Source: an uncultured Bacilli bacterium | GTDB taxonomy: Bacteria > Bacillota_I > Bacilli_A > RF39 > UBA660 | DNA length: 38,161 bases | Direction of reading: 5' to 3' | NCBI GenBank assembly: GCA_944359085.1 | Contig: CALVSQ010000008.1 | Span: 1 to 38,161, forward strand | Shown: positions 1,958-31,998 of the stretch, piece after piece | Layout: each line of letters begins with the position of its first letter | Position numbering within the stretch: position 1 is the first letter of the stretch | Made by a program: the position numbers and the translations under genes | The notes under the pieces: generated by a model | The model's database searches: none | The model's input: the letters and a program-made list of their open reading frames with translations, nothing else | Told to the model about the DNA's origin: nothing

Positions 1958-3121
1958 TTATTTTAGTATATTTTTTATTTTATTTTTTAATCTAATAGGT
2001 ATTAATTTAGAAACATTTATCTTAATTTTATTTTTAATAATATATTTTTCTCCAAAAGGTGTATATTTTTTTAAAACATAATCATATCCTTTAGTATAAT
2101 AATATTTCCAAAATTTTTTTCTATCATAAGGTTCTTCAGTTGGCCTTATCAAATTTACTTGTAAACAATCTTTTTCGTTGCTTTTAACATAAATAATATT
2201 ATTTTTTATTGCTTCAAATACTTTTTTTCCTAATTCAGTATTTAATAAAACTAATGATACACCTTTATTATCATCAAAATCATTTATTTTTATTCCCCAA
2301 TAATCACCGATTGTTATATCTGATACACGATTTATACTAGTAAATGAACATTCATAACAAGAAGGCCTTAAAGTTTTATCAGTATGAAATAAATATTTGT
2401 AACTTTGAGAAAAGGCAGAATTAAAATCAACACTATTATTTTTATATACTATTTTTTCTGTGTGATTGTTCCAACCATTTTCTTTAGTTCGAAAGTAATA
2501 CCACTTCATATTTTTTTTAATATTTTTAATATGTTCTCTCCATAATAATGGACTTGGAACACCATGACATATTAAATCACATAAAATTAATTTATTAATA
2601 TTTTGCTTTTTAAATAATAAATAACTTTTTAAACTTGCAATTTGACAAGGTGTACCAACAAACAAAACATATTTATCATTAATCAAATCATTTAAAACTG
2701 ATGAAAAAATGTTACCTAAATAACTTTGAACATATTTTGAACCTCTTAATTTAAACAATTCAGTCTTGCTCATTATTTTTTCATGAACAACATTAAAATT
2801 TTCATCAAAAGTAGCACCATAAACAACACCATTTAATGCCAAAACATAATCAGCTAATACACTAAAAATACCACCAGATGAACTTTCCATTCTAATCTTA
2901 TCATCTTTATTTTTACAAGCATAAACTAAAGGTAAATTATTTTTTAGTATTGGATTATTTAATATACATTCTTTTTTGCACAAACCACAATCAATACATT
3001 TAGTTTCATCAATATAAGGATATTGAAAACCTTCTTCATCTTCTAACATAGTTATAGCATTTTTAGGACATATATTATAACATAAAGTACAACCACAACA
3101 ATTTTTATTACAAATTTTCAT
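1958..3121 (-). CDS. FrhB-family (coenzyme F420 hydrogenase beta-like) iron-sulfur protein
   Basis: A 387-residue predicted cytoplasmic flavo/iron-sulfur protein. Two ferredoxin-type 4Fe-4S motifs lie at the N-terminus (C8, C11, C14, C18 and C42, C45, C48, C52). They are followed by the FrhB N- and C-terminal domains, with characteristic PCQIASLK and CHGVPSP segments. Members embedded in capsule loci are usually next to polysaccharide pyruvyl transferases, as here (one gene intervenes). Their reaction is not established; redox modification of a sugar is a guess. The open frame starts at a GTG nine bases upstream, but AGGTGG overlaps it and serves the ATG at 3121, which I choose. It is the last gene of operon B, and no convincing terminator is visible in the 78 bases after it. 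Confidence 0.88.
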   Translation of the reverse strand: MKICNKNCCGCTLCYNICPKNAITMLEDEEGFQYPYIDETKCIDCGLCKKECILNNPILKNNLPLVYACKNKDDKIRMESSSGGIFSVLADYVLALNGVVYGATFDENFNVVHEKIMSKTELFKLRGSKYVQSYLGNIFSSVLNDLINDKYVLFVGTPCQIASLKSYLLFKKQNINKLILCDLICHGVPSPLLWREHIKNIKKNMKWYYFRTKENGWNNHTEKIVYKNNSVDFNSAFSQSYKYLFHTDKTLRPSCYECSFTSINRVSDITIGDYWGIKINDFDDNKGVSLVLLNTELGKKVFEAIKNNIIYVKSNEKDCLQVNLIRPTEEPYDRKKFWKYYYTKGYDYVLKKYTPFGEKYIIKNKIKINVSKLIPIRLKNKIKNILK

Positions 3122-3136
3122 AAAAACCACCTATAC

Positions 3137-4642
3137 TCAAATTTTTAATAACATTTTAATCCTATTAAAAAATTTTTTTAAATCTTCTCTATCAAAAATA
3201 AAATCATTAACTATAATAACTAAAAACGATATTACTAAAATGACAACCCCACTTAAACACCAATCAATATAATTATAAATTTGAAAATCAATATTACTAT
3301 ATATATAAATGATAATACCCATTAAAACAAATAATTTTATTTGTTTTTTTAATGTTGTAGAAATCGATAAATGAGTTAATTTTTTAGGAATAAATATTAA
3401 TAAGTCAATATCGCGATATAAATTAGAAATAATCAGAGCTATTAAAATTCCAACTATTTTATATTTTGGAGTTAATATAATACCTATAAAAATTATTAAT
3501 AATCCTTGAAATGTTGTTTGCCATTTTGTTTCTTTATACAATCCTGCTGACATAACCAACATTCCTTGTGGAGTTTTTAAGTTATATAAAAGTCCATTTA
3601 AAACAAATAAAAATCCAACTAAAGGAAAATAATAATTAGTATCTAAATTAGATGCATAAATAGAAATAAATGGCATGATTAAGGCAAACGAACAAGAATA
3701 AATAATAATTAACAAATTATAATATATATATTCAAATTCTTTACTTGTTTCTTGCAATTTATTAGTTTCTTTTTTAGCAATAATATCACCAAAAGAAGTA
3801 TATAAACCATTTGTAAAAACTGAAAGTATACTATTTATTCCTTGAATCACCATATTATAAACAGTATATATACTAACTGTAATTAAATTAGTAAAAAAAG
3901 TTAATAAAATAACAGGAGTAGCATTTTGAATAACACCTAATATTTGTAGATATAGAGCATCCCATCTTTTATCAATTAATTTTTTGTTACTTTTTAAATT
4001 ATATTCAATATTTTTATAATGCTTCTTTCCATACACATATAATAATAATGACTTTAGAATAATAGATAATAAAGCAACAAGTCTAACCAAAATAATATTA
4101 ATCTTAAAATATGATAAAACAATTATAATAGCAGTGTTTAAAATATAATAAATTATAGAAATAATAGATATAATATAAGTTTTTTGATCTGCTGTAAATA
4201 AAACTCTATATTTAGCCATTGCAAAGAAATCAATGCAACCATTAAATCCAATTATTAATACCAAGAAAAATAAATCTAAATAAGAAAAGGAATTCAAATT
4301 AACAAAAAAAGGATAAATTAAAGCAAGCAAAAAAACTAAAATTGTAAATATATAGCCAGATAAAAAGTAAAAATGCTTAGCAGTTGAAACAACCTCACTT
4401 ATTTTTTTATTATCTTTCTTAGATAAAGGTACATATAAAGAATAAACCGCTGCACTAGCTAAACCAGCTTCAACTAAATTAAAATAGCTTATAAACTGTG
4501 TAATAGAAGTTATTAATCCATTAACATCAGAACCATAGCATTTAATTATAACTATAGGTAAAATAAAACCAACAAACATTAATAAACAATTTAAAATAGT
4601 TGTCGAAATAAAATTGTAAAAAAATATTTTTGTCCTATTCAT
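3137..4642 (-). CDS. wzx: Polysaccharide flippase (Wzx, MOP superfamily)
   Basis: A 501-residue polytopic membrane protein with about 12-14 hydrophobic segments across its whole length. The family is recognisable from the N-terminus: a TM segment ending in IKCYGSDVNGL, then the LVEAGLASAAVYSLY region typical of Wzx-like lipopolysaccharide or teichoic acid exporters. It should flip the undecaprenyl-linked repeat unit made by operon B across the membrane. It overlaps the end of the pyruvyl transferase gene by 8 bases, with AAAGG upstream of the ATG, indicating translational coupling. It is the first of two flippases in the window; the other, at 19785-21245, is of the WzxC/TuaB type and is clearly divergent, so they are not recent duplicates. 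Confidence 0.88.
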   Translation of the reverse strand: MNRTKIFFYNFISTTILNCLLMFVGFILPIVIIKCYGSDVNGLITSITQFISYFNLVEAGLASAAVYSLYVPLSKKDNKKISEVVSTAKHFYFLSGYIFTILVFLLALIYPFFVNLNSFSYLDLFFLVLIIGFNGCIDFFAMAKYRVLFTADQKTYIISIISIIYYILNTAIIIVLSYFKINIILVRLVALLSIILKSLLLYVYGKKHYKNIEYNLKSNKKLIDKRWDALYLQILGVIQNATPVILLTFFTNLITVSIYTVYNMVIQGINSILSVFTNGLYTSFGDIIAKKETNKLQETSKEFEYIYYNLLIIIYSCSFALIMPFISIYASNLDTNYYFPLVGFLFVLNGLLYNLKTPQGMLVMSAGLYKETKWQTTFQGLLIIFIGIILTPKYKIVGILIALIISNLYRDIDLLIFIPKKLTHLSISTTLKKQIKLFVLMGIIIYIYSNIDFQIYNYIDWCLSGVVILVISFLVIIVNDFIFDREDLKKFFNRIKMLLKI

Positions 4643-5681
4643 TTATACCAACCTTTAAAGATTGTGATAAAAATCTTAAACTTTTTTGTCTTTCATTTAA
4701 AAGAATTTTATTCACACTAGAATAATCAATATTATTAATGTTATTAATATCCATTCTATCTAATAATCCTAATTTTTCTAATAAATTAATTTGTCTTATT
4801 CCTCTAGTAGCATGAGGAATAACAATAAACTTTTTTTCAAAAATAATTGAAAAAACTGTACCATGAAATGAATTAGTAATCACAAAATCAGAATATTTTA
4901 TCATAGATAAAAATTGAGTTGGACTTAGCCTTTTTAAAAATAAACAATTTGGAATTAAAGGATTTTTTTTCAATATACTCTTTTTATAATAACAAATTAA
5001 TTTTTTATTTAATCTTTTTGAAATTATTTCCATAGAATTAATGAGCTTATCATTCATTTCTAAACAGTAAACAAAAATATAATTACTAAATTTATTTTGT
5101 TCGATAAGTTTATCCCATTGTTCTTTTGATAATAATAATGTTGGATCTAATGTTACATCGATATTACAAATTCCAATATTTTCAAGGATATCTTTAGCAC
5201 TTTCTTCTCTTACTGATATGCTATCAAAATCTTTTAAAATACTTAAATGTTTTTTTTCTTCATCTGAAATTTTTTCTCTACCAATACTTGCAGCATATGA
5301 TATTTTATTGTTTATATCAAAATCCAACATATATATATTTCTTTGATATCCTACTATCTCTTCATTCCATACTTGATCACTACCACATATAACATTAGTA
5401 TATTTCTTTACTTCTTTAGAAATTTCTTTTAAATTTTTGACCTTTTTAGTTAAATTATAATATTTCTTTGCGAATGATCTATATCCACTATAAAAATACA
5501 AATCTGTTATTTTTAATAAATTATCTTTTATTTTTCTAGATAATTTAGTATTAACATTTTTCAAATCATAATTTAGCAAATAAGTTTGTCCGTATTTAGT
5601 TAATGTTTCTTGTAAGGCATATGATTGTAACATTGCACCTATATTTTTTTCATTACAAAAAGTTACTATTAAATTTGTCAT
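4635..5681 (-). CDS. Polysaccharide pyruvyl transferase family protein
   Basis: A 348-residue cytoplasmic enzyme of the WcaK/CsaB-type family, which transfers pyruvate from phosphoenolpyruvate to form ketal groups on sugars. Supporting motifs are the N-terminal NIGAMLQSYALQ segment, the CGSDQVWNEE segment, SYAASIGRE, and the conserved C-terminal ITNSFHGTVFSIIF with its His near residue 270. Length matches the family. The ATG at 5681 is preceded by GAGGTGAAAAA, an excellent ribosome site. Some capsule-locus members are suspected to use other donors, so the pyruvyl assignment is by family only. It lies between the GT-D enzyme (9-base gap) and the flippase (8-base overlap) and near an FrhB-type protein, a combination commonly seen in such loci. 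Confidence 0.88.
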   Translation of the reverse strand: MTNLIVTFCNEKNIGAMLQSYALQETLTKYGQTYLLNYDLKNVNTKLSRKIKDNLLKITDLYFYSGYRSFAKKYYNLTKKVKNLKEISKEVKKYTNVICGSDQVWNEEIVGYQRNIYMLDFDINNKISYAASIGREKISDEEKKHLSILKDFDSISVREESAKDILENIGICNIDVTLDPTLLLSKEQWDKLIEQNKFSNYIFVYCLEMNDKLINSMEIISKRLNKKLICYYKKSILKKNPLIPNCLFLKRLSPTQFLSMIKYSDFVITNSFHGTVFSIIFEKKFIVIPHATRGIRQINLLEKLGLLDRMDINNINNIDYSSVNKILLNERQKSLRFLSQSLKVGINE

Positions 5682-5690
5682 TTTTTCACC

Positions 5691-6605
5691 TCATATTTTT
5701 TTAATAATAGAATTCACATATTCTTTATTATTATCAAATTGATTAAAAGTTTCTTGATTTGCTTCATTAGTATATTTCCCTAAAACAGCACATTTTTTCT
5801 TTGCTTTTTTCAAAAACCATTCATATTCAATATCAATATGCCCAATGTCTATAGCTTGATATCCTAACATTGCCAAATCGTATGCTAAAACTGTAGCAGT
5901 TGGACCTAAAGCAATTAATATTAATTTTTTTGAATCAATTTTTTTAGCTTCGCATAAAATTTCATTATATTTAGAAAAAGCATTAGTAGAAGGACATATT
6001 ATTCTTTTTAAAGATTTTACATTATCAAATAAATCATTATTAACCCCAAGTCGTGTAAAATTTCCTTCTATAACAACAACTTCTCTATTATTCCACATTT
6101 TTTTTAAATTTTGAAATTTATATTCTACGTTCTTGTTTTTGTAATCCATGTATGGCCTTGTAATACTTGCATTACAATAATTATAGTCAACATTTAATAA
6201 ATTAAATAGCTCTTTACTAAGAGAAACAGTAAAATTAACCCAAAAACTTTTTGCAGATATATTTAAAGAAGAGATATCTTGAATTTGTTTAGGAATACCA
6301 ATTAATATATTTTTATTATTTGACGTTAACACCTCTAATAATCTTTTACTTAACAATGGATTATTATCCTGAAATGATTGTTGTTTTTTGCCTAAAATCC
6401 ATTTAATTTCACCATCGCCAAAACGACATAGTGATAATTTTTTTTCTATTATTAAGTCTATCGTTTGTTCTTCAGAGTATATTTTATATTTTTTGAATTT
6501 ACTATTCAAATAATAATATCTAGGTAGATTAATTAAATATCTTAAGAAATCATATAATCTACATAAATTTTTATAAAATTTTTTAGGTAATATTTTTTTA
6601 ATCAT
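5691..6605 (-). CDS. GT-D (DUF1792) family glycosyltransferase
   Basis: A 304-residue protein containing the DUF1792/GT-D domain, whose characterised streptococcal members add a glucose during serine-rich-protein glycosylation. The diagnostic LCRFGDGE segment (RFGDGE at 61-66) and the acidic DIGHIDIEYEW segment near residue 257, corresponding to the family's DxE metal site, are both present. The basic N-terminus, about residues 1-40, may be membrane-associated. Its ATG overlaps the TGA stop of the preceding triple-fusion gene (ATGA), with GGAG seven bases upstream, so it is translationally coupled. There is no adhesin gene or SecA2 system in the window, so a role in polysaccharide repeat-unit assembly is more likely than protein glycosylation. 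Confidence 0.82.
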   Translation of the reverse strand: MIKKILPKKFYKNLCRLYDFLRYLINLPRYYYLNSKFKKYKIYSEEQTIDLIIEKKLSLCRFGDGEIKWILGKKQQSFQDNNPLLSKRLLEVLTSNNKNILIGIPKQIQDISSLNISAKSFWVNFTVSLSKELFNLLNVDYNYCNASITRPYMDYKNKNVEYKFQNLKKMWNNREVVVIEGNFTRLGVNNDLFDNVKSLKRIICPSTNAFSKYNEILCEAKKIDSKKLILIALGPTATVLAYDLAMLGYQAIDIGHIDIEYEWFLKKAKKKCAVLGKYTNEANQETFNQFDNNKEYVNSIIKKI

Positions 6606-9559
6606 AGTAAACTCCTTATTTTTTTTATTATCTTTCTAACTTTACAATATACTAATAAACCATTACTTTTTCTATTTAGAACCAAATATTTAAATATTTT
6701 ATATCTCAAAGAAATTTGATTTGTGTTAAACATTTTATCTAAATTTTTGATACTTAAAAATTCTTTTATATCTTCCTTATTTTGTAATAAATTACAATTA
6801 CTTTCTACTAAAATTATTTTTTTTAATTTTAGTAGTTCACTATCGCCAACTAAAACTTGAATTTGATTGATAGCTCTATTAAAATTACTAATATTTTCTT
6901 TTATTTTATTTTTATTATTAGTAATACTACTTTGATTAATTGTATAACCATATAAACAATCACCAACTAAAGAAATATTTTTAACTTTTCCTAAAACAGT
7001 TAACAAAAATACTGAATCTTCCATGTAATGTAAATCTTCTTTAAATTTTATATCATCTAATAATTTCTTTTCAAACATCCATGACCAAATAAAGCCACCT
7101 GCTTCATTATTTAAATATTTATTTATGAATTCTTTAGATGATATATCTTTATTTAATTCCTCTTTTTTAATAATTTTATTTTTTTTAATTATATAATAAT
7201 TACATTTAGCTATTCCATACTTTTTAACATTTTTATATAATTTTAATATCATATTTTTATCCAAAAAATCATCTGAATCAACAAATACTATATACTTACC
7301 ATTTGCTTTTTTCAAACCATTATTTCTAGATTTACTGACTCCAGAATTTTTTTGATTAATCAAAATAATTCTATCATCATTTTTTATATATTTGTCACAT
7401 ATTTCTTTAGAATTATCAGTAGAACCGTCATTAATCAAAATTATTTCTATTTTTTTGTATGATTGATTTATAATTGAATTTAAACATTTATCTAAATAAT
7501 TTTGGGCATTGTAAACTGGTACAATTATACTAATTAAATCTTTTTGTTCAATATCAGTTTCTATTATAAAGTTTTCAGTAGATTGATTAATATACGGATT
7601 AGCTTTATTTATTAAACTCAATACTTGAATTGATAATAAACAATTTATACTTGAAACTACAACGTTACTATCTCCAAATCCAAACGTCAAAATTATTAAT
7701 TGAGCAATCATTAATGCATTATTATTTTTTAATTTTGTTAAACTAAAATAATTTAATAAAATATATATAATAGTTCCTATAATTCCAAATCTTAGTAATG
7801 GAAATAAATAATAGGAATCTAAAGCAACTGGTATTCTCTCATAAAATCCAAATAATGTCGTTAAATATCCATTTTCAAAATAATATAGAAACGCAGTTAT
7901 TCTACCACTTAAAAACTTATCTAATAATTCTATTGGTAACGGTATTAAATCAAAACTTATTATACATAATAAAGCAAATGAAAAAATAATTAAAATTTGA
8001 TACAAATGGGGAATAATAAAATATAATAATTTCTTTAAATATTTGTTAAACATAAGTACCAATAAAAATAAAACTAAAGTAATAATTCCTGTTCTAGAAT
8101 AAGATAAGTAATATAAGACTAAACCAAAAAAACAAGACATAAACATAAATTTTTTACTTGTACCATAACCAATATAATAAGCAACGATAATGCCTGTATA
8201 ATAAAGCATGACAAATGCAACATTCATAAATCCCATTGCATATCTTATATTGTCATAACGAGATAAATTATGATCTGGTAAAATATCTATCATATTTAAA
8301 AATAAAGTTAAGATAAAGCATATTGTTAAAGAATGGAAAAAAATTTTTCCAATTTTTTTATAATCATCATTATAAAAAGATATAGCAATCATAACAGGAA
8401 AAACAAAATTAACGCTTTTCATATTAATCATTGTTATAGAAGATAATAATGATAATATGCATATAATTATAAAATCATTTAATTTTATTTGTTTAATTCT
8501 TTTTACAAAAACGATTAAACATAAAATAAATATTACAAATATCATTGGAAATAAAATATAATAATTTCGATAATTATATGCCAACAAAAATTTATATAAA
8601 ACAATTAAAAATATCTCTATTATTTGTATAATACTTATAATATTTAATTTTGGAATTTTTAAATTATTTATATAATCAACAACATTTTTTAAAGCATGAG
8701 CAAAAATTAATGTTAAAACAAAGAATAAAATTATACTAAATATATTATGCTTTAAAATTATTAAAGGTCCATCGATAAATGGATAGTGAACAATAAAAAT
8801 ATAATAAGACATACTATCTAAGTAATCAACAATTTTATTATTTTTAATAAAATTCATTTTATTAATAACACTAAAAATGCTTAGAGAAATTAATATATGA
8901 CTAACAGAACTAATTGTCGTTTCATAAAAATAACTATCATCTAATATAAATTTACCTAATATTCTAATTATAATTGCGATTGCAAAAGTAAGAAAACCAT
9001 AATTTAATTTATAATTTTCCTTTTTGAATATATATCCTAAAGAAAATGTAAATAAATAAAATCCCAATAAACTGATACTTTTATTGAAAAATCCAATAAA
9101 AATTGACAATAAGATTAAACCTATTGAAATTTTAAAAGTGTCCTTTTTATTTAATAATGGCAATAACAAATAACAAATCATTATAACCGAAACAAGCCAT
9201 AAATGACCTATCCCCATAATTCTACAAAAAAAATATTGTAAATTAAATATGTAAGAAAAAAAAGAATATATTGAAAAATTATCATAAAAAAGAGAATTTA
9301 AAAACATTATAACTAAAGAAAAAATTAATGACGGTAAAAATATTTTTTTAATTTTAATAAAAATCCAAGTTATAAATTTATCAATTTTTTTATTAGCATG
9401 TAAATATCCTGACAAAAATAAAAATATAAATACTCCAACATTAAAAAATTGGGCTAAATAATTTATAAAAATATTATTCGAATAATTACACAAATGACAT
9501 ATTATTATAAAAAGCATTGCTACTATTCTAGTCACTTGAATTGATACAACTTTTTGCAT
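6602..9559 (-). CDS. Triple fusion: acyltransferase-3 / Wzy-like polymerase / GT2 glycosyltransferase
   Basis: A 985-residue protein that appears to join three normally separate activities. Residues 1-295: an acyltransferase-3 (OafA-like) membrane domain with the family's R-x10-H motif (R11, H22) and FLFLSGYL. Residues about 305-650: a second hydrophobic block resembling O-antigen polymerases, with YSRTG near residue 488, a large extracytoplasmic loop with FLSGRITAF, and LLRFGIIGTIIYI near the end. Residues about 674-985: a GT2 glycosyltransferase with ISIIVPVYN, NDGSTDNS and FVDSDD. The reading frame is uninterrupted, and no ribosome site or start codon is visible at either junction. The polymerase assignment rests on topology and motifs and is the least certain part. 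The ATG at 9559 follows TAGGTG. The acyltransferase could O-acetylate the polymer the central domain makes. Confidence 0.82.
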   Translation of the reverse strand: MQKVVSIQVTRIVAMLFIIICHLCNYSNNIFINYLAQFFNVGVFIFLFLSGYLHANKKIDKFITWIFIKIKKIFLPSLIFSLVIMFLNSLFYDNFSIYSFFSYIFNLQYFFCRIMGIGHLWLVSVIMICYLLLPLLNKKDTFKISIGLILLSIFIGFFNKSISLLGFYLFTFSLGYIFKKENYKLNYGFLTFAIAIIIRILGKFILDDSYFYETTISSVSHILISLSIFSVINKMNFIKNNKIVDYLDSMSYYIFIVHYPFIDGPLIILKHNIFSIILFFVLTLIFAHALKNVVDYINNLKIPKLNIISIIQIIEIFLIVLYKFLLAYNYRNYYILFPMIFVIFILCLIVFVKRIKQIKLNDFIIICILSLLSSITMINMKSVNFVFPVMIAISFYNDDYKKIGKIFFHSLTICFILTLFLNMIDILPDHNLSRYDNIRYAMGFMNVAFVMLYYTGIIVAYYIGYGTSKKFMFMSCFFGLVLYYLSYSRTGIITLVLFLLVLMFNKYLKKLLYFIIPHLYQILIIFSFALLCIISFDLIPLPIELLDKFLSGRITAFLYYFENGYLTTLFGFYERIPVALDSYYLFPLLRFGIIGTIIYILLNYFSLTKLKNNNALMIAQLIILTFGFGDSNVVVSSINCLLSIQVLSLINKANPYINQSTENFIIETDIEQKDLISIIVPVYNAQNYLDKCLNSIINQSYKKIEIILINDGSTDNSKEICDKYIKNDDRIILINQKNSGVSKSRNNGLKKANGKYIVFVDSDDFLDKNMILKLYKNVKKYGIAKCNYYIIKKNKIIKKEELNKDISSKEFINKYLNNEAGGFIWSWMFEKKLLDDIKFKEDLHYMEDSVFLLTVLGKVKNISLVGDCLYGYTINQSSITNNKNKIKENISNFNRAINQIQVLVGDSELLKLKKIILVESNCNLLQNKEDIKEFLSIKNLDKMFNTNQISLRYKIFKYLVLNRKSNGLLVYCKVRKIIKKIRSLL

Positions 9560-9566
9560 AAAACAC

Positions 9567-11681
9567 CTACTTCATATACAATTTTTTTATTTTTTCTATC
9601 CAATTACTTTTATTAACAAATTTATCAATTTTAACAGAATTTTTAATATTTTCATATTTAAAAAATTTTGAAACATATTCATCAATATCAGAACATATAT
9701 ATTGTTTATTTTCTTCAAATATTTCTGCTAATCCACCTACTCCACTATTTAAAACAACTTTATCTAATATTAATGATTCAACAGCTGTCAAACCAAATCC
9801 CTCATAAATAGATGGCATTATACAAACTTTAGAATTTTTAATAATTGGAAAAGGATTTTCTACAAATCCAACTAATTTAATATTGTTTTCTAATTGATAT
9901 TCTTTTATTAAATTCAAACAATCTTTTTTTAATTCTCCATCACCAATCATTACAACTTTTATATTATTTCTTTTTTCTTTTATTTTTTTTATTATTTCTA
10001 TAAACATTAATGGATTTTTATATTCATTTAATCTACCTATAAAGTATAAATCATAATAATCACTACAATTAAGTTGAGATTTTTTTAATATTTTTTCTTT
10101 ATCAACATAATTGTAAATTGTTATATACTTGTTAATTATTTTATTTTTAAAAATTGCTTCATCTAAAACGCTATTAGAAACACCTACTATTTTTTTTATT
10201 TTTTTTAATCTACTAATATAAAGCAAACTTTTTAAATTATATGTCTTTGCAATTGGAGAATTTATATGTAAATGCGAAATTATTGTTCCCTTAAATGGTA
10301 ACAAAGTAGCAATTACGCTTGCTTTATAATCATGAGCATGAATAATATCTGGTTTATACTTTTTAACTATTCTATTTATTTCTTTTTTGTTTAGTTTATT
10401 AAATAATTCAAATTTAATATTATTTTTTAGTAATATGTTTTTTATATCACCATTTCTTGAACAATAAATAAAATCAGCATCATTAGATAAATTAGATATA
10501 ATATCACATACCACATTTTCAGCTCCAGATAATTTATTACTAGATAATAAATGTAATATTTTTGTTTTACTCTCAACTGTATAAATGTTTATCATGTCTT
10601 TCATAATATTATCAAGCAAATATCTTTTTATTTCTTGATTATTATTCTTTTTGAAAATTAAAGCTAATTTTTTATCATTGTATATTTTTTCAATGTTAGT
10701 AACTAAAGAATCTACATCACTAGTTCCAATTAAAAAGCCATTAAAATCATTTCTAACTAAGTCTCTATTTCCTCGACAATCAGTAGCAATTATAGGTAAT
10801 CCTACATACATTGCTTCCATTATATTGACAGGTAATCCTTCTCGCAAACTTGTTGAAACTGCCAAATTAGAAATGTTTAGAAGTTTTGGTATATCATCCC
10901 TAAATCCTAAAAAATGAATATTTTTTTCAAGATTTTTAGCATGAACTATTTTTTGATAATATTCATTATAGGAATCTATTCCTGGTAATAACAAATGAAT
11001 ATTTTTATATTTTGCAACCAACTTTTCCATAGCATATATTAGCATTATCTGATTTTTATTTTTATTTAATTCTGCTGGGTAAGTTATAACAAAATCTTCT
11101 TCATTCAATCCCAAACTTTTTCTTAATTCTATTTCATCTTTTTTTGTTAATTTAATATTAAATTTTTCTTCATTTATGCCTACCCCAGGAACATAATAAA
11201 TTTTTGTATTAAATTTACTTTTTGCTAAATTAAAATCCTCTTTATTAATTGTTATAATGGCATTAGTATAATTGGCTAATATCTTTTCAATTGGATAAAA
11301 TAATACCCAATTAATTAATGGAGCTCCTTTATAGAAATGAAAACCATGAGCAGTATAAATTACTTTTGTTCTACTAGTTTTTCTAACTTTGTTAGCTGCA
11401 ATTCTAGCTACAACACCTCCCATAGGAGTATGGGCATGAATAATATCATATTTTTCTTCTTCAACTATCTTTTTAAGTTCAAATATAGCTTTAATATTTT
11501 TTAAATTGAAAGGACTTCTTTTGATATTTATTTTAATTTTTTTATCACAATACTTTATTTTATTAGAAGAGTTAGTTGCAACATGCACTTCATATCCATT
11601 TTCTTTAAAAAATTTTAAAAAAGGTAAATGAAATAAATTTATATGAGAATCTAAAGTTGCAACAAATAAAACCTTTTTCAT
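9567..11681 (-). CDS. Two-domain GT4 glycosyltransferase (tandem GT4-GT4)
   Basis: A 704-residue cytoplasmic protein made of two complete GT-B folds of family GT4. Domain 1 (about 1-368) starts KKVLFVATLDSHI and includes AHTPMGGVVARIA, YTAHGFHFYKG and the E-x7-E motif EGLPVNIME. It resembles EpsD/CapM-type enzymes acting on a lipid-linked sugar. Domain 2 (about 372-704) starts ILHLLSSNKLSGAENVV, contains PDIIHAHDYKA, and has the E-x7-E motif EGFGLTAVE. Each half has both Rossmann-like lobes, so it probably adds two successive sugars. No start codon or ribosome site is seen at the junction. TAGGAGG precedes the ATG at 11681. It sits second in operon B, directly after the initiating sugar-phosphate transferase. 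Confidence 0.9.
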   Translation of the reverse strand: MKKVLFVATLDSHINLFHLPFLKFFKENGYEVHVATNSSNKIKYCDKKIKINIKRSPFNLKNIKAIFELKKIVEEEKYDIIHAHTPMGGVVARIAANKVRKTSRTKVIYTAHGFHFYKGAPLINWVLFYPIEKILANYTNAIITINKEDFNLAKSKFNTKIYYVPGVGINEEKFNIKLTKKDEIELRKSLGLNEEDFVITYPAELNKNKNQIMLIYAMEKLVAKYKNIHLLLPGIDSYNEYYQKIVHAKNLEKNIHFLGFRDDIPKLLNISNLAVSTSLREGLPVNIMEAMYVGLPIIATDCRGNRDLVRNDFNGFLIGTSDVDSLVTNIEKIYNDKKLALIFKKNNNQEIKRYLLDNIMKDMINIYTVESKTKILHLLSSNKLSGAENVVCDIISNLSNDADFIYCSRNGDIKNILLKNNIKFELFNKLNKKEINRIVKKYKPDIIHAHDYKASVIATLLPFKGTIISHLHINSPIAKTYNLKSLLYISRLKKIKKIVGVSNSVLDEAIFKNKIINKYITIYNYVDKEKILKKSQLNCSDYYDLYFIGRLNEYKNPLMFIEIIKKIKEKRNNIKVVMIGDGELKKDCLNLIKEYQLENNIKLVGFVENPFPIIKNSKVCIMPSIYEGFGLTAVESLILDKVVLNSGVGGLAEIFEENKQYICSDIDEYVSKFFKYENIKNSVKIDKFVNKSNWIEKIKKLYMK

Positions 11682-11689
11682 AATGCCTC

Positions 11690-12313
11690 CTACTCATAAT
11701 GTTGTAATTTTAGTGTATCTATTTCTTTTAACATATCTTCCTGAATAATTTCTGCATGACTTTTTTTAAATACAATTATTATGCTTAAAAAGAATATTTT
11801 TAAATCTAAAAATAAACTTAAATTATCAATATATTCAAGATCGTATTTTATTTTTGTAAAAACATCTAACCCATTACGTCCCATTACCTGTGCTAATCCA
11901 ACAATACCTGGTCTTACTTCAACTCTTCTTTTTTGTTCATCATTGAAATTTTTATAATAATCAACAATCCATGGTCTTGGACCAACAATTGACATATCAC
12001 CTTTTAATACATTCAACAATTGTGGAAGCTCATCTAATGATGTTTTCCTTAAAAATTTACCAATTTTTGTTACTCTTTTTTCATGACACATTGAAAATTC
12101 CTTTGATTTTTCAATGTTATTCATTGTTCTAAACTTATACATTGTGAAATTTTTACCATTAAGTCCCGTTCTTGTTTGTTTATATATAGCTGGACCTTTA
12201 TCAAATAATTTGATTAACAAATAGATAATTAATAGCAATGGCCAAAGTAAAAACAATATAGTGATAGAAATAACAAAGTCAATAAATCTCTTAATATAAT
12301 TTTTATATAACAT
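11690..12313 (-). CDS. Initiating sugar-phosphate transferase (PglC/WbaP-C type)
   Basis: A 207-residue monotopic enzyme of the bacterial sugar transferase family that moves a sugar-1-phosphate from a UDP-sugar onto undecaprenyl phosphate, the first step of repeat-unit assembly. It has the short form (no multi-TM N-terminus): a re-entrant hydrophobic helix at residues 12-37 (ending GPAIYKQTRTG), the catalytic Asp-Glu pair in TSLDELPQLLN (about residues 92-94), and the GDMSIVGPRPW and RPGIVGLAQVMGRNG motifs. Substrate cannot be read from sequence. It is the first gene of operon B; GAGGGG precedes the ATG and a plausible promoter lies about 30 bases upstream. TagO (30907) belongs to the unrelated polytopic superfamily, so the window encodes two different initiators. 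Confidence 0.93.
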   Translation of the reverse strand: MLYKNYIKRFIDFVISITILFLLWPLLLIIYLLIKLFDKGPAIYKQTRTGLNGKNFTMYKFRTMNNIEKSKEFSMCHEKRVTKIGKFLRKTSLDELPQLLNVLKGDMSIVGPRPWIVDYYKNFNDEQKRRVEVRPGIVGLAQVMGRNGLDVFTKIKYDLEYIDNLSLFLDLKIFFLSIIIVFKKSHAEIIQEDMLKEIDTLKLQHYE

Positions 12314-16827: not shown

Positions 16828-18123
16828 TTAAATATCAGAATAATCAATCAAATTTTCTATTACATCAACATCAAATACAGGAATATGTTTTTTATCAAAA
16901 ACTTCTTTTCTTTCTTTATAATAATTATCAATGAATATAGCCTTTTTATGTTTAATAAAATCTGATTTACTATCTAATTCATTTATAATTATTATTTCAG
17001 CAAAAATTGATTTATCTATTTTATATTTTTTTAATGAATCATAAATATTAGTACTATGCTTTGATATTAAATAAATTTTTTTATTTTTATTTAAACATTG
17101 ATAAATAAAAGCCATAGCTTTTGAATTAACTTTATTATTTATAATTAAAGTATCATCAAAATCAATATAAATATTATCATAAGAAAAATTTAAATTATAA
17201 GAATTTTTTAAACGTCTACTTAAAGTTAAATCATATTTATTATATAAAATATTTGTATCTAATTCTAATGCATCAAACAATGATAAAAGTGCGAAATTGA
17301 TTCCTAACGTACGATACAAAGCCATTGTCCCTGCTTGTCTAACAGAAAATTCCATTAATTTATATTTTCCATTAATATCTCTCTTTAACTGAAAAAACCA
17401 AGCACCTCTAAATACAAATGTATTGTTTAAATCTATAGCTATTTTTTCTATTTCTTCAGAAAGAGGAATTGTTTTTGATTCAAAAGAAATTCCCATAGTA
17501 ATTCTTTCTCTTGTTCTTGGGCCAACAAATAATAATTGTCTTTTAAAATTAGTGAAACAATCTACTGTAATTTCATCACCAGGTAAATTTTCACATATTA
17601 CTAAATCATTATTTGAGTTTAATTTTAAAAATAGTTCTTCATAATCTTTAGCTAAATAAGTTCCTTTTCCTCCAGCTCCAATATTTGGCTTTAAAAAAAC
17701 AGGATAATCTTTAACTTCATCAATATTATTATAAATTTTTGGACAATAAAATTTATTTTTTAAATTATCAAAAATCAATTTCTTACTATGAGCAATTCTT
17801 GTAGTTTCAAGTGGAGAGCAAACTATTTTGGCATTTATGTTTTTTTCATTTTCCATTAAAAATAATGCTATAGTATCATGAGTTGGAATTATCAAATCTA
17901 TTTGAAATTTATTAATTAAATCATTAAAATGATTTATAAAATTCTCATCAGATATATATAAATTTTCAATACAATAATTAGATTTAGGATATAATTCTTT
18001 ACCATAATCAATTAAAGAAGAAGCTCCAAATAAATTAAAATGAATATTATATTTTAACGAATCATGAATATTTATAGCATTTTCTCCACCTGCCGGAAAA
18101 ATTAATACATTATACTTCTTCAC
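16828..18123 (-). CDS. ATP-grasp ligase fused to a HAD-like domain
   Basis: A 431-residue two-domain protein. Residues 1-300 form a CarB-like ATP-grasp enzyme: an N-terminal pre-ATP-grasp lobe (KKYNVLIFPAGGENAINIH), the nucleotide-binding loop FLKPNIGAGGKGTYLAKD, and a metal-binding region near KLMEFSVRQAGTMALY. Residues about 312-431 resemble a small HAD phosphatase: DFDDTL as motif I, ISKHS as motif II and IFIDN as motif IV. ATP-grasp enzymes typically join a carboxylate, often an amino acid, to an amine through an acyl phosphate. Starts with GTG (18123) with GGAGG six bases upstream, inside the end of the DegT-like gene. With the aminotransferase and WbqC it may aminoacylate an amino sugar; this is inference. 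Confidence 0.8.
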   Translation of the reverse strand: MKKYNVLIFPAGGENAINIHDSLKYNIHFNLFGASSLIDYGKELYPKSNYCIENLYISDENFINHFNDLINKFQIDLIIPTHDTIALFLMENEKNINAKIVCSPLETTRIAHSKKLIFDNLKNKFYCPKIYNNIDEVKDYPVFLKPNIGAGGKGTYLAKDYEELFLKLNSNNDLVICENLPGDEITVDCFTNFKRQLLFVGPRTRERITMGISFESKTIPLSEEIEKIAIDLNNTFVFRGAWFFQLKRDINGKYKLMEFSVRQAGTMALYRTLGINFALLSLFDALELDTNILYNKYDLTLSRRLKNSYNLNFSYDNIYIDFDDTLIINNKVNSKAMAFIYQCLNKNKKIYLISKHSTNIYDSLKKYKIDKSIFAEIIIINELDSKSDFIKHKKAIFIDNYYKERKEVFDKKHIPVFDVDVIENLIDYSDI

Positions 18124-19057
18124 AAATTTCCTCCAAACTACTTATAATACAGTCCATATCTTCTTTAGAATATCGTTGATCAATTGGCAATGGTAAAATA
18201 TTATTTATATATTCTAATTCTATTTTACTTAAATTATTTTCTTCAACAATATTAGGCCACAATTTAGGTATATATATTTTTTTAGAAATCAAATAATCTC
18301 TTACTTTTTTTCCTTCATCAACATATAAAGGATACATAAAAGTTAAATTATTAGGTAAAGATAATCTCTGAAACTTTTTTAATTTTTCATTTAAATAATT
18401 AAAATTATCTATTCTTATTTTATAAGAATTTTTATAATCAATAGCTCCCATTATAATCTTAGAAAAATTTGACATTTTATAAATATTACCTTTATCAAAT
18501 TTTTTATCGTTATTAGAAAATTCTGTATAATAAGTGACTGCATTTTCTTCTAATCGTCCTATTAAATGTCCTATTTTATCATTAACAACATAGGGCTCTA
18601 TTTCATCGTTTTTTTTAATGTTACTGTATAAATATGCTCCGTCAGCAACTCCAAAATATTTTCTGCAATTATATATAGAATTTGTTACTGGCTTTTGAAA
18701 AAAAGAATGAGTATTATCTACTATTAAACTTTTATATTTATTCATCATCTTTTTTATTTTATCATTTGAAATCAATCCATAATAATTAACTAAATAAATA
18801 TATGAGTAACCATCATAATCATCAAGTATAGGCATAAAATCATTATCAATATGGTATAAAACAATATCACATTTTTCATCTACACAAGCTCTATAAACCA
18901 CTTCACACAAATAAATTGGTAAATAAATTTTTTTTATTTTATTAAATCTTATAAAATACTTTAATGCATTTCTTGAACTATTAAAATCAAGACAATTTTT
19001 ATGATAAGGCTGATTGATTAAACCTCCTAATTCAATATATCCACCTATTTCTTGCAT
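18110..19057 (-). CDS. Divergent DegT-like PLP-fold protein
   Basis: A 315-residue protein I recognise only as a distant member of the DegT/DnrJ aminotransferase superfamily. It keeps a plausible PLP Asp and its partner in LIVDNTHSFF (D114, H117; compare YDAAHAFG in the neighbouring enzyme), and a lysine, K133, followed by YFGVADGAYLY. In the true aminotransferase at 15711 the residues from Lys to the Gly pair are one longer, so the active-site loop here is altered. It is about 50 residues shorter than usual. It may be an atypical transaminase, a PLP enzyme with other chemistry, or a binding subunit. GGAG precedes the ATG. It overlaps WbqC by 13 bases and the ATP-grasp gene by 14, indicating a tightly coupled module. 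Confidence 0.65.
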   Translation of the reverse strand: MQEIGGYIELGGLINQPYHKNCLDFNSSRNALKYFIRFNKIKKIYLPIYLCEVVYRACVDEKCDIVLYHIDNDFMPILDDYDGYSYIYLVNYYGLISNDKIKKMMNKYKSLIVDNTHSFFQKPVTNSIYNCRKYFGVADGAYLYSNIKKNDEIEPYVVNDKIGHLIGRLEENAVTYYTEFSNNDKKFDKGNIYKMSNFSKIIMGAIDYKNSYKIRIDNFNYLNEKLKKFQRLSLPNNLTFMYPLYVDEGKKVRDYLISKKIYIPKLWPNIVEENNLSKIELEYINNILPLPIDQRYSKEDMDCIISSLEEICEEV

Positions 19058-24052: not shown

Positions 24053-27000
24053 TCACTCCTCATATATTTTTATAGTCTCATAATAAATTTTTTGATTATA
24101 CTGAATATAATCAAAATTATATTTAATTTTAAATCCTTCATTAATAAATTTTTTCATACCATCATAAATTGCTTCATCATTATTTGAAACTACTATTCCA
24201 TATTTATTTTTAATATCTTTTTTTGCATCAGAAACATTAGTTGTTACAATTGGAATATTAAGTACAAGAGCCTCAATAAACACAACAGGATATCCTTCTC
24301 TTATTGAAGATAATAAGAGGGCTGATGATTTATTTAAATATTTATAAGGATTTTTCTTTTTTCCTAACAAATGAATATTGTTAATGTTTAATTCTTTTAT
24401 TTTATCAATATATAACTGATGATCTTCCCCATCACCTACAAAAAGAACTTCAAATTTATATCCTTCTTTGTTCAATTTATTAGTAGCCTCAATTATTCTT
24501 ATAAGTTTTTTAGATTCTTCAATATGACGACATATATTAATAAAATATATAGTATTATTTTCAAATTTAAAATCATCTATTTTTTCATTAGATTGTAATA
24601 ATATTTTATCTCCATCTATTACATTATTTAATACATAAATATTATCTTTTCTATGAATTAATCCTACTAATGCTTTCTTTGCATCTTCTGAAACACAAAT
24701 AATTTTTTTAAATTTTTCATATTTACATTTTTTTATTCTTTTTTGCAGTATTTTTTTATTCATTCCATCAATTAAATTTGAATGAATGTAAACTATACTA
24801 TTTTCACTACTTAATCTAGTTAAAGAAGTTAGAATTGGATGCTGATAAGAATATGAAATAGCAATATCATATTTAACAAATATTTGATAAATATATCTAA
24901 AAATTAATTTTATAAATGCTGTTACTTTTCCAAATAAATTCCATTTATTTGGACATGCAATAATTATTTTAATATTTTTAGGTAATAATTCTAAATAATT
25001 CATATCACCCTTATATACTAAATATAACGTTAAATCATATTTTTCATTTAACTTAACATAATTAATTAAATTAACTAAAGCTTTTTCCATGCCTCCAAAA
25101 GATAACTTTGGCATATATATAATCATTTTCTTCTTTTTGTTACTGATTTTTTCTAAACCTTTAAAATAACTTTCTTTGTTACCATCAAATTTTTCGATTT
25201 CTTCCTTATATTTATCATAAATATTTTTATCATTTATAAAATCTAGCATTCCTTTTTCCAATCCTGAAATTGAATCATCTACCAAAAGACCCATTTTACC
25301 ATTTTTTAATGCTTCTTTTGTACCAGTAACATTTGTTCCTATACAAATTTTTTTCAAACATAAAGCTTCATTAATAACTCTTGGATATCCCTCATATAAA
25401 GAAGAACTAATCAAACAGTCACATTGCTTCATATATGGATAAGGATTAGATTTTACTCCGTGAAGTATTACCTTATCTTTAATATTATTTTTTTCAATTA
25501 AATCAATAACTTTTTTGCCTTCCTCAGTATCATACTTTCCTAAAAAATGTAACAAAACATTTGAATTTTTTTGAACTACTTTAGAAAAAGCTTCTATTAA
25601 TCTATCATATCCTTTTTGAGTATTAAAACGACCTACTGCCAAAAAATTAATCATATTTTGATCGAATTTATAATCTATTTTTACTTTTGCCTTTTTTACA
25701 ATATCATCAACATTAAAATAAGTATAAATAGTACTTGTTTTTCCTTCACAAAAAGGATATTTTTCTAAAAATTCTTGTGTAGTCAAATCAGAAACTGTAT
25801 AAATATAATCCATTTTTTTATAAGAATTTTTAACAAGCTGTTCTCCCCAAGGAATCTTATGAGCTTTTAACTTATGATTTTTTAAGCCTACTCTTATTGA
25901 TGCTATTTTAGTTGAGTTTTTATTATTACTAGATGCAATAAAAACTGATGGATATCCTTCTAAATAAGCAACTTCAGTATTATAATCATCTTTTATAGTT
26001 TTTTTATAAACATATTTTATAAATGGTCCTCCTATCATATAAAAAATATGATAAATTTTTTTCTTTATTTTGTTATAATTAGAATTTAAAATTTCATAAA
26101 CATTGATATTTTTATCCAATTTTTCTAATAAATGTCCTCTTTTTCGTAATAATACAATATCTACCTTATTTCCATTTTTTGATAATTCATTAACAACATC
26201 AACCATGCCAACTTCTGCTCCACCTATACTTAAATCATTTATCATAAATAAATAATCTCTTTTAATTTTTTTGTTTGTTTTTTTAGTAAATAAATTACTT
26301 GCGATAATTAAAAGAATAATTAAATAAAAAACAGTTTGAGCAAATTGCATAGTATATCCAACAAAGTAAAGTATCGCCAAAGATAAACCAAATCCAAAAC
26401 CTAAAATAAATTTAGAAATTGACATTTTTTTAATATTAAATAAACATTTTAAACCATTGATTGCAATATAACCTAATGGTAAAACTATTATTAATAAAAA
26501 TCCAACCAATCCATAACAATAAAATATAGTTAAAACATCAGTTTCTACCCAATTACAATTAGGCATTGTATCATGACCATAACCTAATATTTTATCCTTA
26601 ATAGGGCTTATAGAATATAAATATTTATTTAATGTTTTTTGAATTGTCCTATTATCGAAAACCGAACTCTTTATATCTCTATATTTATATAATGTATATA
26701 CCATTCTATTTTCAAAAGTAGATAAATCAGGATTTTCTTGCATTGTTAAATCTTCATAATCATCTATATTATCTTCTATTAAATTGATATCGCCAGTTTC
26801 ATCACCTTCAGAAATGCTTATTTGATTTTTAAAATTGGCATATCCATAAGTTAAATTAAATGTTGATATTAAAACTAAAGAAATTGTTATAAAATATATT
26901 GTATCCTTACTTATTTTTTTATCTTTTATTGAAACAATTATTTTCATTAATGTATAAAATAGGACTATAAATAAAGTCATAAATAAAGGTGTTTTTGTCC

Positions 27001-27661
27001 CTACCAAATAAAAAGGTGGAATCAAAATACAAGCAAAAAATAAATATTTATACCATTTATTTATATATTTTTTTTCAAAAATCGTGTAAATTATGACAGG
27101 TAAAGCATAAATAATTGAATGACCTATATAATGCGCTGAAACAGACCAACCACGCCATCCTTCCTTTCCTTTAGAAAAAATATACGTTAATGGCGATGTA
27201 TTAGTAATAACCGAAATAAAATATATTAACACCATTAAGCCAATAGCTAAAGTGAAAGAAATTAAGATTTTTTTTCTATCTTCTTTATTGACAATTTTAA
27301 AAATAAAATAAAAATTAATCAATTGTATTATAAAATATCCATAATTACACAAATATCTTATTTCATTAAACATATTACCATAAGATAGTTCAAAGAAATT
27401 ATTCCTTATATTTATCAAGTGTAAGATACAATAAATTCCATAAATAGATAAATAGATAAATGAAATTAACTTTTCTTTGGTTGAAATTTTATAACTGAAC
27501 AATAAATATAAATAAATTCCAATTGAAATTAATGGGCGAATAAATGATATGAATGGTAAATCAAAATTAATTACATTATTTAGAAAATAAATAAAAACAT
27601 CATATAAAGGTTGTAATATAATAAATAAAATCAAAAATTTTGTAAATTTATCTGTTTTCAT
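24053..27661 (-). CDS. Triple fusion: Wzy/O-antigen-ligase-like polymerase with two GT4 domains
   Basis: A 1202-residue protein, the largest of the window. Residues 1-460: about 11-12 hydrophobic helices with the layout of O-antigen ligase/Wzy polymerases, including a long acidic outer loop (about 275-370, with GYGHDTMPNCN) before the last helices. Residues about 472-830: GT4 domain 1, starting FMINDLSIGGAEVGMVDVV and containing EGYPRVINE (E-x7-E). Residues about 846-1202: GT4 domain 2, starting MIIYMPKLSFGGMEKALVNL, with EGYPVVFIE. The frame is continuous with no internal ribosome site at the junctions. Start ATG 27661 follows GGGTGAT; the frame opens earlier at a TTG I reject because it lies in the end of the preceding gene. 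It probably couples addition of two sugars to polymerisation at the membrane. Confidence 0.87.
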   Translation of the reverse strand: MKTDKFTKFLILFIILQPLYDVFIYFLNNVINFDLPFISFIRPLISIGIYLYLLFSYKISTKEKLISFIYLSIYGIYCILHLINIRNNFFELSYGNMFNEIRYLCNYGYFIIQLINFYFIFKIVNKEDRKKILISFTLAIGLMVLIYFISVITNTSPLTYIFSKGKEGWRGWSVSAHYIGHSIIYALPVIIYTIFEKKYINKWYKYLFFACILIPPFYLVGTKTPLFMTLFIVLFYTLMKIIVSIKDKKISKDTIYFITISLVLISTFNLTYGYANFKNQISISEGDETGDINLIEDNIDDYEDLTMQENPDLSTFENRMVYTLYKYRDIKSSVFDNRTIQKTLNKYLYSISPIKDKILGYGHDTMPNCNWVETDVLTIFYCYGLVGFLLIIVLPLGYIAINGLKCLFNIKKMSISKFILGFGFGLSLAILYFVGYTMQFAQTVFYLIILLIIASNLFTKKTNKKIKRDYLFMINDLSIGGAEVGMVDVVNELSKNGNKVDIVLLRKRGHLLEKLDKNINVYEILNSNYNKIKKKIYHIFYMIGGPFIKYVYKKTIKDDYNTEVAYLEGYPSVFIASSNNKNSTKIASIRVGLKNHKLKAHKIPWGEQLVKNSYKKMDYIYTVSDLTTQEFLEKYPFCEGKTSTIYTYFNVDDIVKKAKVKIDYKFDQNMINFLAVGRFNTQKGYDRLIEAFSKVVQKNSNVLLHFLGKYDTEEGKKVIDLIEKNNIKDKVILHGVKSNPYPYMKQCDCLISSSLYEGYPRVINEALCLKKICIGTNVTGTKEALKNGKMGLLVDDSISGLEKGMLDFINDKNIYDKYKEEIEKFDGNKESYFKGLEKISNKKKKMIIYMPKLSFGGMEKALVNLINYVKLNEKYDLTLYLVYKGDMNYLELLPKNIKIIIACPNKWNLFGKVTAFIKLIFRYIYQIFVKYDIAISYSYQHPILTSLTRLSSENSIVYIHSNLIDGMNKKILQKRIKKCKYEKFKKIICVSEDAKKALVGLIHRKDNIYVLNNVIDGDKILLQSNEKIDDFKFENNTIYFINICRHIEESKKLIRIIEATNKLNKEGYKFEVLFVGDGEDHQLYIDKIKELNINNIHLLGKKKNPYKYLNKSSALLLSSIREGYPVVFIEALVLNIPIVTTNVSDAKKDIKNKYGIVVSNNDEAIYDGMKKFINEGFKIKYNFDYIQYNQKIYYETIKIYEE

Positions 27662-27671
27662 GTTAATCACC

Positions 27672-28775
27672 CTACTCAAATAATTTTTTTACTTTTCTTA
27701 AATTGTCATCGTTTATTTTTTTAAAATTATTAGTTAAATTTTTATTATCATTTTTTTTGCTTAACCATATATTTAAACCTTCATCAATACTATTATCCAA
27801 ATTAGGAATAATTACTTTATCTGAATATTCATTCAGAATTTCTCTAACACCTGGAACATCTGTTGCTATAATACTTTTATTTAAAACCATTGCTTCAATT
27901 ACAACAGTCGGATAAGCCTCACTACGTGAACTGAGTAAAAAAGCATCACATTTTTTTATATAAGGATAAGGATTTTTCTTTAGTCCTAAAAAAATAACAT
28001 TATTAATTTTTTGTTCTACCAAACTATGCGTCAACTTATCTTTTAATAGTCCATCACCTATAATATAAAAATTTATTTTATTTTCATATTTTTGGGCAAT
28101 ATTTATAATTCTATCAAAACCTTTTTCTGATACAATTCTTCCAATTGATAAAATATTTAATTTGTCTGAATCAAATGAAATATTTTCCAAATTTGATTTG
28201 TTTATAATTTTATTAATATCAACATAATTATGAATTAATTCAATTTTTCCTTCACTTTCAGGAAATGTTTCTTCAAAAATATTAATACATGATTCACTAA
28301 CACCTATTATCTTATCAAAAGAATTACAAATAGTTGAATATTTTTCATATGTTGTCACATCATCTTTAGTAACACTAGCATGTATCCAAACTATTTTTTG
28401 ACTATTATTTGGACTCATTTTAACAATATTAGAAGGTAACCCAGCTAAAAAAGCAATTTCCGTATCATATTTAGTTTTCAAAATTTTTTTATATACATAA
28501 TTTACATACAATTTGCTTTTGCCAAAATATCTATAAATTAAACTTCGTTTAACTTTATTATAAAATTTTTCTAATGAAGATTTACAAAATTCATCACCTT
28601 TAGTTAAATATTTCAATTTTATATTAGGTGATATGCTTTTTAACAACTCTCCACGTTTTTCGATTAATAAAACTGTTATATCAAAATCTTTATAAATATT
28701 ATTTAAAATATCTACCATAACAGTCTCTGCCCCGCCTATTTGTAGGCTACCAATAACAAACAAAATTTTTTTCAA
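27672..28775 (-). CDS. GT4-family glycosyltransferase
   Basis: A 367-residue GT-B enzyme of family GT4. It begins KKILFVIGSLQIGGAETVMV (Gly-rich acceptor loop), contains ILSIGRIVSEKGFD at the start of the second lobe, and the E-x7-E motif EAYPTVVIE. It is similar in length and motifs to each of the two GT4 domains in the next gene, so the three may derive from one ancestor. No ATG is available; the product probably starts at TTG 28775 (GGTG seven bases upstream), although in-frame TTG and GTG codons exist up to 28787. The non-ATG start suggests lower expression than its neighbours. Confidence 0.9.
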   Translation of the reverse strand: MKKILFVIGSLQIGGAETVMVDILNNIYKDFDITVLLIEKRGELLKSISPNIKLKYLTKGDEFCKSSLEKFYNKVKRSLIYRYFGKSKLYVNYVYKKILKTKYDTEIAFLAGLPSNIVKMSPNNSQKIVWIHASVTKDDVTTYEKYSTICNSFDKIIGVSESCINIFEETFPESEGKIELIHNYVDINKIINKSNLENISFDSDKLNILSIGRIVSEKGFDRIINIAQKYENKINFYIIGDGLLKDKLTHSLVEQKINNVIFLGLKKNPYPYIKKCDAFLLSSRSEAYPTVVIEAMVLNKSIIATDVPGVREILNEYSDKVIIPNLDNSIDEGLNIWLSKKNDNKNLTNNFKKINDDNLRKVKKLFE

Positions 28776-31977: not shown

Positions 31978-31998
31978 ATGGCTATAAACTAGCCATTT
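31961..31998 (-). terminator. Terminator shared by convergent tagO and the cohesin-like gene
   Basis: A perfect 9-bp stem AAATGGCTA/TAGCCATTT (31976-31984 with 31990-31998), loop of 5. In the minus direction it is followed by ATTTTTTTC and further T, giving a strong intrinsic terminator. The stem contains the last codons and stop codon of the minus gene and overlaps the tagO stop codon. In the plus direction the T-run is poor. Confidence 0.8.

Follow-up and report, generated by a model that had tools for sequence, protein, structure and literature searches.

Can a single polypeptide carry three activities of surface-polysaccharide assembly that must work on opposite faces of the membrane? The question is raised by an open frame at positions 6602–9559 of the window, the whole 38,161-nucleotide stretch of DNA analysed here. 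An initial annotation proposed that an AT3 acyltransferase, a Wzy-like polymerase and a GT2 glycosyltransferase are joined in this one frame of 985 residues. This three-part composition was confirmed: the first and last parts match Pfam AT3 and GT2, and the part between them is Wzy/WaaL-like. With a probability of about 0.72, we infer from these domains that the gene encodes a single membrane protein with three functions, belonging to a surface-polysaccharide pathway of the Wzx/Wzy type; its activities and substrates are deduced in the same way. The gene, its parts and its neighbours are as follows.

3137–4642, reverse strand: probable Wzx flippase (weak match to PF01943, E = 0.13)
4635–5681, reverse strand: polysaccharide pyruvyl transferase (PF04230, 2.8e-36)
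5691–6605, reverse strand: GT-D glycosyltransferase of the SP_1767 family (PF08759, 4.4e-86; TIGR03728), with a 4-base overlap with the fusion frame
6602–9559, reverse strand: AT3-Wzy-GT2 fusion, 985 residues in a single open frame
6605–7543, reverse strand: GT2 domain, residues 673–985 (PF00535, 1.2e-37; DGSTD at 711, DSDD at 761, ED at 847)
7544–7594, reverse strand: polymerase/GT2 linker, residues 656–672 (low model confidence; no in-frame start or ribosome site)
7595–8641, reverse strand: predicted Wzy/WaaL-type polymerase domain, residues about 307–655 (WaaL fold, conserved columns, profile link to Wzy_C proteins)
8663–9559, reverse strand: AT3 acyltransferase domain, residues 1–299 (PF01757, 7.6e-20; ten predicted helices; R-X10-H)
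9567–11681, reverse strand: GT4-GT4 fusion of 704 residues, whose halves are two separate genes in genomes G294 and G488
11690–12313, reverse strand: initiating sugar-phosphate transferase (Bac_transf; PF02397, 5.4e-65)

The fusion frame begins with ATG, preceded by the ribosome site GTAGGTG, and holds no internal stop. Its junctions fall at residues 299–307 (about 8641–8665) and 656–672, close to positions 8650 and 7550 where they had first been placed, and the accompanying claim that neither holds a start with a ribosome site also stands. At the AT3/middle junction, all candidate starts are out of frame and their anti-SD pairing is weak (−2.9 to +1.5 kcal/mol, against a mean of −6.5 over the genes of the window). 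At the middle/GT2 junction, the sole in-frame start is a TTG at residue 647 with a pairing value of +0.6. This lack of ribosome sites and plausible starts disfavours an assembly error. An altered genetic code was considered and rejected, because all three stop codons are in use in the window (TAA 13, TGA 8 and TAG 7 times).

An assembly or sequencing artefact that merges two or three genes would nevertheless be a natural concern, since the source genome (1.13 Mb) is a 68% complete MAG in 59 contigs and the full triple fusion was seen in this MAG only. Relatives of the frame argue otherwise. A scan of genome contigs with a single protein found no locus, and a scan with a two-sequence profile found two. 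In G294 (CANQIS010000020.1) and G488 (CANROQ010000003.1), which belong to another genus, AT3 and Wzy form one frame of 708 residues, and the G294 frame has 46.6% identity to that of the window over 678 residues. Comparison of the G294 and G488 frames gives dN/dS values of 0.26 for the AT3 half and 0.39 for the Wzy half, which indicate purifying selection on both. In these two genomes GT2 is a separate gene; in G294 it shares 11 bases with the end of the preceding frame, and the ribosome-site-like AAAGGTGATG lies ahead of its start. This site and start are replaced in the window by an open linker, a change for which a single indel is insufficient. Analogous Wzy-GT2 fusions occur in G265 and G383. 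Given the AT3-Wzy fusions in the two further MAGs, the purifying selection and the open linker, a frame error is very unlikely, and the AT3-Wzy-GT2 fusion is a real, uncommon architecture.

The operon around the fusion is collinear in the window, G294 and G488, in the order sugar transferase, GT4, GT4, AT3-Wzy, GT2 and GT-D, and in the window the two GT4 genes form one frame, as do Wzy and GT2. Thus, relatives share the AT3-Wzy part of the architecture but keep GT2 apart. The triple fusion probably arose stepwise within this conserved operon, AT3 and Wzy joining first and GT2 then being added at the C-terminus. The nearest named relatives at this locus are MAGs labelled as uncultured Bacilli; their isolate names contain ‘Lapin’, which suggests the rabbit gut as their source. 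When the relatives L031:5365–7491 and L067:4000–6126 are compared, the AT3 half has a dS of 0.21 but the Wzy half one of 0.58, a hint that the Wzy part has recombined or been exchanged.

The N-terminal domain matches PF01757 over residues 6–287 (71.7 bits, cut-off 31), and this part of the model forms ten long predicted helices across residues 5–299. The R-X10-H motif of AT3 proteins (PMC9833829) is present in helix 1 as R11 and H22. The RXXR motif, expected on the cytoplasmic face in helix 3, is replaced by a conservative K-I-K-K at residues 69–72; the corresponding residues are R-F-K-R in L031, R-L-K-R in L067 and R-L-K-K in the free-standing L046. RXXR is highly but not absolutely conserved among AT3 proteins (PMC9833829). 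The AT3 assignment is therefore drawn from the profile and R-X10-H, and acyltransferase activity is less certain. Two other unusual AT3 chains were seen, one joining AT3 to PMT_2 (L069:924–3422, 832 residues) and the other joining AT3 to PGA_cap and a GDSL lipase (L072:2317–5076, 919 residues).

Pfam recognises the expected AT3 and GT2 domains, but the middle third, some 375 residues between them, has no match in Pfam or NCBIfam. Specifically, the window domain has no match to Wzy_C (PF04932) or O-antigen_lig (PF13425), a profile of the middle block found nothing in a sequence search of the PDB, Foldseek without realignment gave the middle-block model nothing below 1e-3, and the sole NCBIfam match was a weak one to EpaQ in one homologue (E = 0.11). 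This absence of a family could be taken to mean that the block is simply extra helices of the acyltransferase. However, the Pfam AT3 profile is already nearly complete upstream of it (positions 3–321 of 326), and the block also exists as free-standing frames and has a WaaL-like fold. These observations contradict an acyltransferase origin, which had been named as the outcome that would overturn the polymerase assignment, and we reject this explanation as having next to no chance of being correct.

Relatives of the middle block were found with its profile in 10 of the 386 genomes of the family. At seven loci the homologues are free-standing, in frames of 347–376 residues, and most of these stand in clusters that also encode an initiating sugar transferase and glycosyltransferases, often together with a flippase. 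All ten aligned sequences share R148, R153, G157, R203, R267, G278 and D295 (domain numbering), the Arg and Asp positions of the full protein being R434, R439, R489, R553 and D581. The AlphaFold model of the block (pLDDT 85, pTM 0.84) has WaaL (7tpg) as its best PDB match, with Z = 13.1 and an rmsd of 5.3 over 295 aligned residues. A Z near 13 can by itself be chance in helical proteins, so weight was placed on the gap to unrelated proteins (below 5) and on the consistency of clan, as the next six rows are FtsW/RodA chains (Z of 5.7–7.3), which share a clan with WaaL.

Profile comparisons lead to the same family. Using hhalign, the middle block aligns with 95% probability to a Wzy_C-type group, a member of which (L034) matches Wzy_C at 1.1e-10. 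The homologue L097, from genome G096, matches both the middle-block profile (7e-45) and Wzy_C (1.2e-6) across identical residues, its Wzy_C score of 28.8 bits lying just below the cut-off of 31.7. In the GT-C1 signature, Arg residues on the outer face serve the diphosphate, and an Asp, Glu or His in the large loop towards the C-terminus serves the acceptor (PMC10920833). R489, R553 and D581 fit this signature, their equivalence to WaaL residues being taken from order and loop position, not from residue-level superposition. The proposal that the block is Wzy-like is thus borne out by the WaaL fold, the free-standing homologues and the profile link to Wzy_C, and the domain is classed as Wzy/WaaL-like by fold and homologues only.

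The main alternative to a polymerase is an O-antigen-ligase-like domain that moves finished glycan to an acceptor. The top structural match is indeed the ligase WaaL, and ligases and polymerases have a common fold (PMC10920833). Yet the domain is the sole Wzy candidate of its cluster, in the window and in G294 alike, and by alignment an Asp, not the His of ligases, is conserved near the acceptor position. Moreover, glycans of Gram-positive cells are usually attached by LCP proteins. A ligase role is consequently improbable, and we read the middle block as a Wzy-type polymerase, polymerisation being predicted from the fold and the homologues.

The C-terminal domain is matched by PF00535 over residues 677–834. 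Its predicted fold is that of GT-A glycosyltransferases, with Z = 29.0 to CgT and 25.4 to TarP in a PDB comparison of the full-length model that covered the GT2 part only. In a phylogenetic tree, the window GT2 groups with a GT2 from genome G007 (support 0.96) and apart from its positional counterpart in the G294 operon, so that the tree does not support orthology of these two genes. Relatives of the window GT2 are often adjacent to a Wzy that belongs to the family of the window Wzy.

How the three parts sit in the membrane was assessed using the full 985-residue model (pLDDT 85, pTM 0.59), which contains the ten AT3 helices and the WaaL-like helix set of the middle block and leaves the relative placement of domains uncertain. 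Helix sides were assigned with guidance from WaaL and the model, with the short helix at 386–394 counted as crossing by analogy with WaaL. The N-terminus was taken as inside, which puts 27 Lys and Arg residues in inner loops and 12 in outer loops. The ten-helix AT3 domain and the 12-helix WaaL-like domain are each predicted to begin and end in the cytoplasm, so that GT2 would be cytoplasmic while the polymerase signature residues and the acyl-acceptor site would face outwards. Activities on opposite faces, as the initial annotation held, are therefore predicted, but the supposed conflict between them disappears, because each active site is predicted to lie on the face where it is needed.

These features point to the following route. 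GT2 would add one sugar to an undecaprenyl-diphosphate-linked repeat unit in the cytoplasm, and Wzx would flip the unit. At the outer face, the central domain would then link repeat units, and AT3 would place on the same glycan an acyl group taken from acyl-CoA in the cytoplasm and carried through the membrane. The likely sequence is sugar addition inside, flipping, and then polymerisation and acylation outside. The earlier suggestion that GT2 adds the last sugar is not upheld, because the GT-D glycosyltransferase at 5691–6605 follows in the operon. The benefit of a single chain would be that the three activities are kept together at a ratio of 1:1:1, and functional coupling with fixed stoichiometry is possible.

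Whether fusion confers such an advantage can be judged in part from other fused proteins. In G097, of a third genus, AT3 is joined to O-antigen_lig in a chain of 773 residues (9e-23 and 3e-51, both far over the cut-off). This chain uses a different Wzy family, so AT3-Wzy fusions arose at least twice. In a class-wide search with the G097 protein, no further AT3-Wzy chain appeared among the matches listed, and its Wzy half was confined, among those matches, to the same family. Wzy_C matches are present in 241 genomes; counted by eye among the matches listed, at least about 27 are in frames of more than 700 residues. Among 20 such long loci that were read, most are Wzy-GT4, two are Wzy-GT4-GT2 and one is a YfhO-type protein. 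Wzy-GT fusions are thus common in the family.

This variety can be read in another way: the domains would be active, but compact, AT-rich operons would have produced a fusion of almost no selective consequence, with the activities independent and little gained. The family’s fusions include Wzy-GT4, Wzy-GT4-GT2, GT4-GT4, AT3-Wzy, AT3-PMT_2 and pyruvyl transferase-FrhB; furthermore, GT2 stays separate in G294 and G488, and the window GT2 does not group with that of G294. These points make largely neutral fusion a serious contender, at somewhat less than even odds. Weighing against it are the repeated origin of AT3-Wzy with different Wzy families and its retention in two genera, the frequent presence of a same-family Wzy beside GT2 relatives, and WadA as a functional example of such a pairing (PMC9938171). 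In a stronger form of coupling, the polymerase would prefer units that its own AT3 has just acylated and its own GT2 has built, thereby locking acylation to chain growth; we consider this more specific proposal doubtful.

WadA of Brucella, which combines a GT25 glycosyltransferase with a GT121 O-antigen ligase, is an experimental precedent (PMC9938171). Like the trifunctional protein proposed here, it places a cytoplasmic glycosyltransferase and a 12-helix, outer-face WaaL-type domain in one chain (PMC9938171, PMC10920833). In contrast, its glycosyltransferase is N-terminal, it is an LPS ligase and it has no acyltransferase, whereas the window protein has a C-terminal GT2 and a WaaL-type domain that is probably a polymerase. 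AT3-SGNH proteins such as OafB and OatA, which modify surface glycans, likewise have AT3 at the N-terminus of a longer chain (PMC9558356). Their partner is an SGNH domain rather than a polymerase and GT2, and the window AT3 needs no 11th helix because its partner starts in the cytoplasm.

The middle domain resembles the GT-C1 Wzy and BP-Pol families (GT119, GT121 and GT125–129) in predicted fold and in the Arg/Arg/acidic signature. Those families are mainly described as free-standing proteins, whereas the window domain is placed by fold at the level of the CAZy clan rather than in one numbered family. The G294 and G488 proteins are the direct relatives; their operon order is the same, but GT2 has its own, overlapping gene. 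A review of AT3 proteins lists SGNH and alanine racemase as the two partners most often fused to AT3 and makes no mention of Wzy (PMC9558356); the AT3-Wzy pairing adds an architecture beyond those it names. The fusion is thus a new combination of known kinds of domain, not a new kind of machine. From the fusions seen here, such two-faced chains would seem to be widespread within one family of gut Bacilli with small genomes. The timing of acylation relative to polymerisation, and the formation of complexes, are hard to test with separate partner proteins, and a natural AT3-Wzy fusion offers a ready-made complex for structural work and for comparison of split and fused forms.

Several observations concern the surrounding genes. 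The probable Wzx at 3137–4642 is 26% identical to L065:4055–5581, which itself matches PF01943 at 4.2e-4. GT4-GT4 chains are also present at L046, L061 and L064. In L062:2004–4373, a pyruvyl transferase and an FrhB-type protein are fused in 789 residues; their relatives in the window, at 4635–5681 and 1958–3130, are separate. The region 1958–31977 seems to comprise two adjacent Wzx/Wzy-type clusters, each with an initiating transferase, a flippase and a Wzy-type protein. It includes a second long chain, at 24053–27679, with O-antigen_lig/Wzy and two GT4 domains in 1208 residues; this frame starts with TTG and lacks a ribosome site, and its true start is uncertain. A 315-residue protein at 18110–19057, also in the polysaccharide region, has no Pfam match. 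Beyond the clusters, a 665-residue protein at 33444–35441 carries a C-terminal Dockerin type I domain and adjoins a Cadherin-like protein at 31982–33433.
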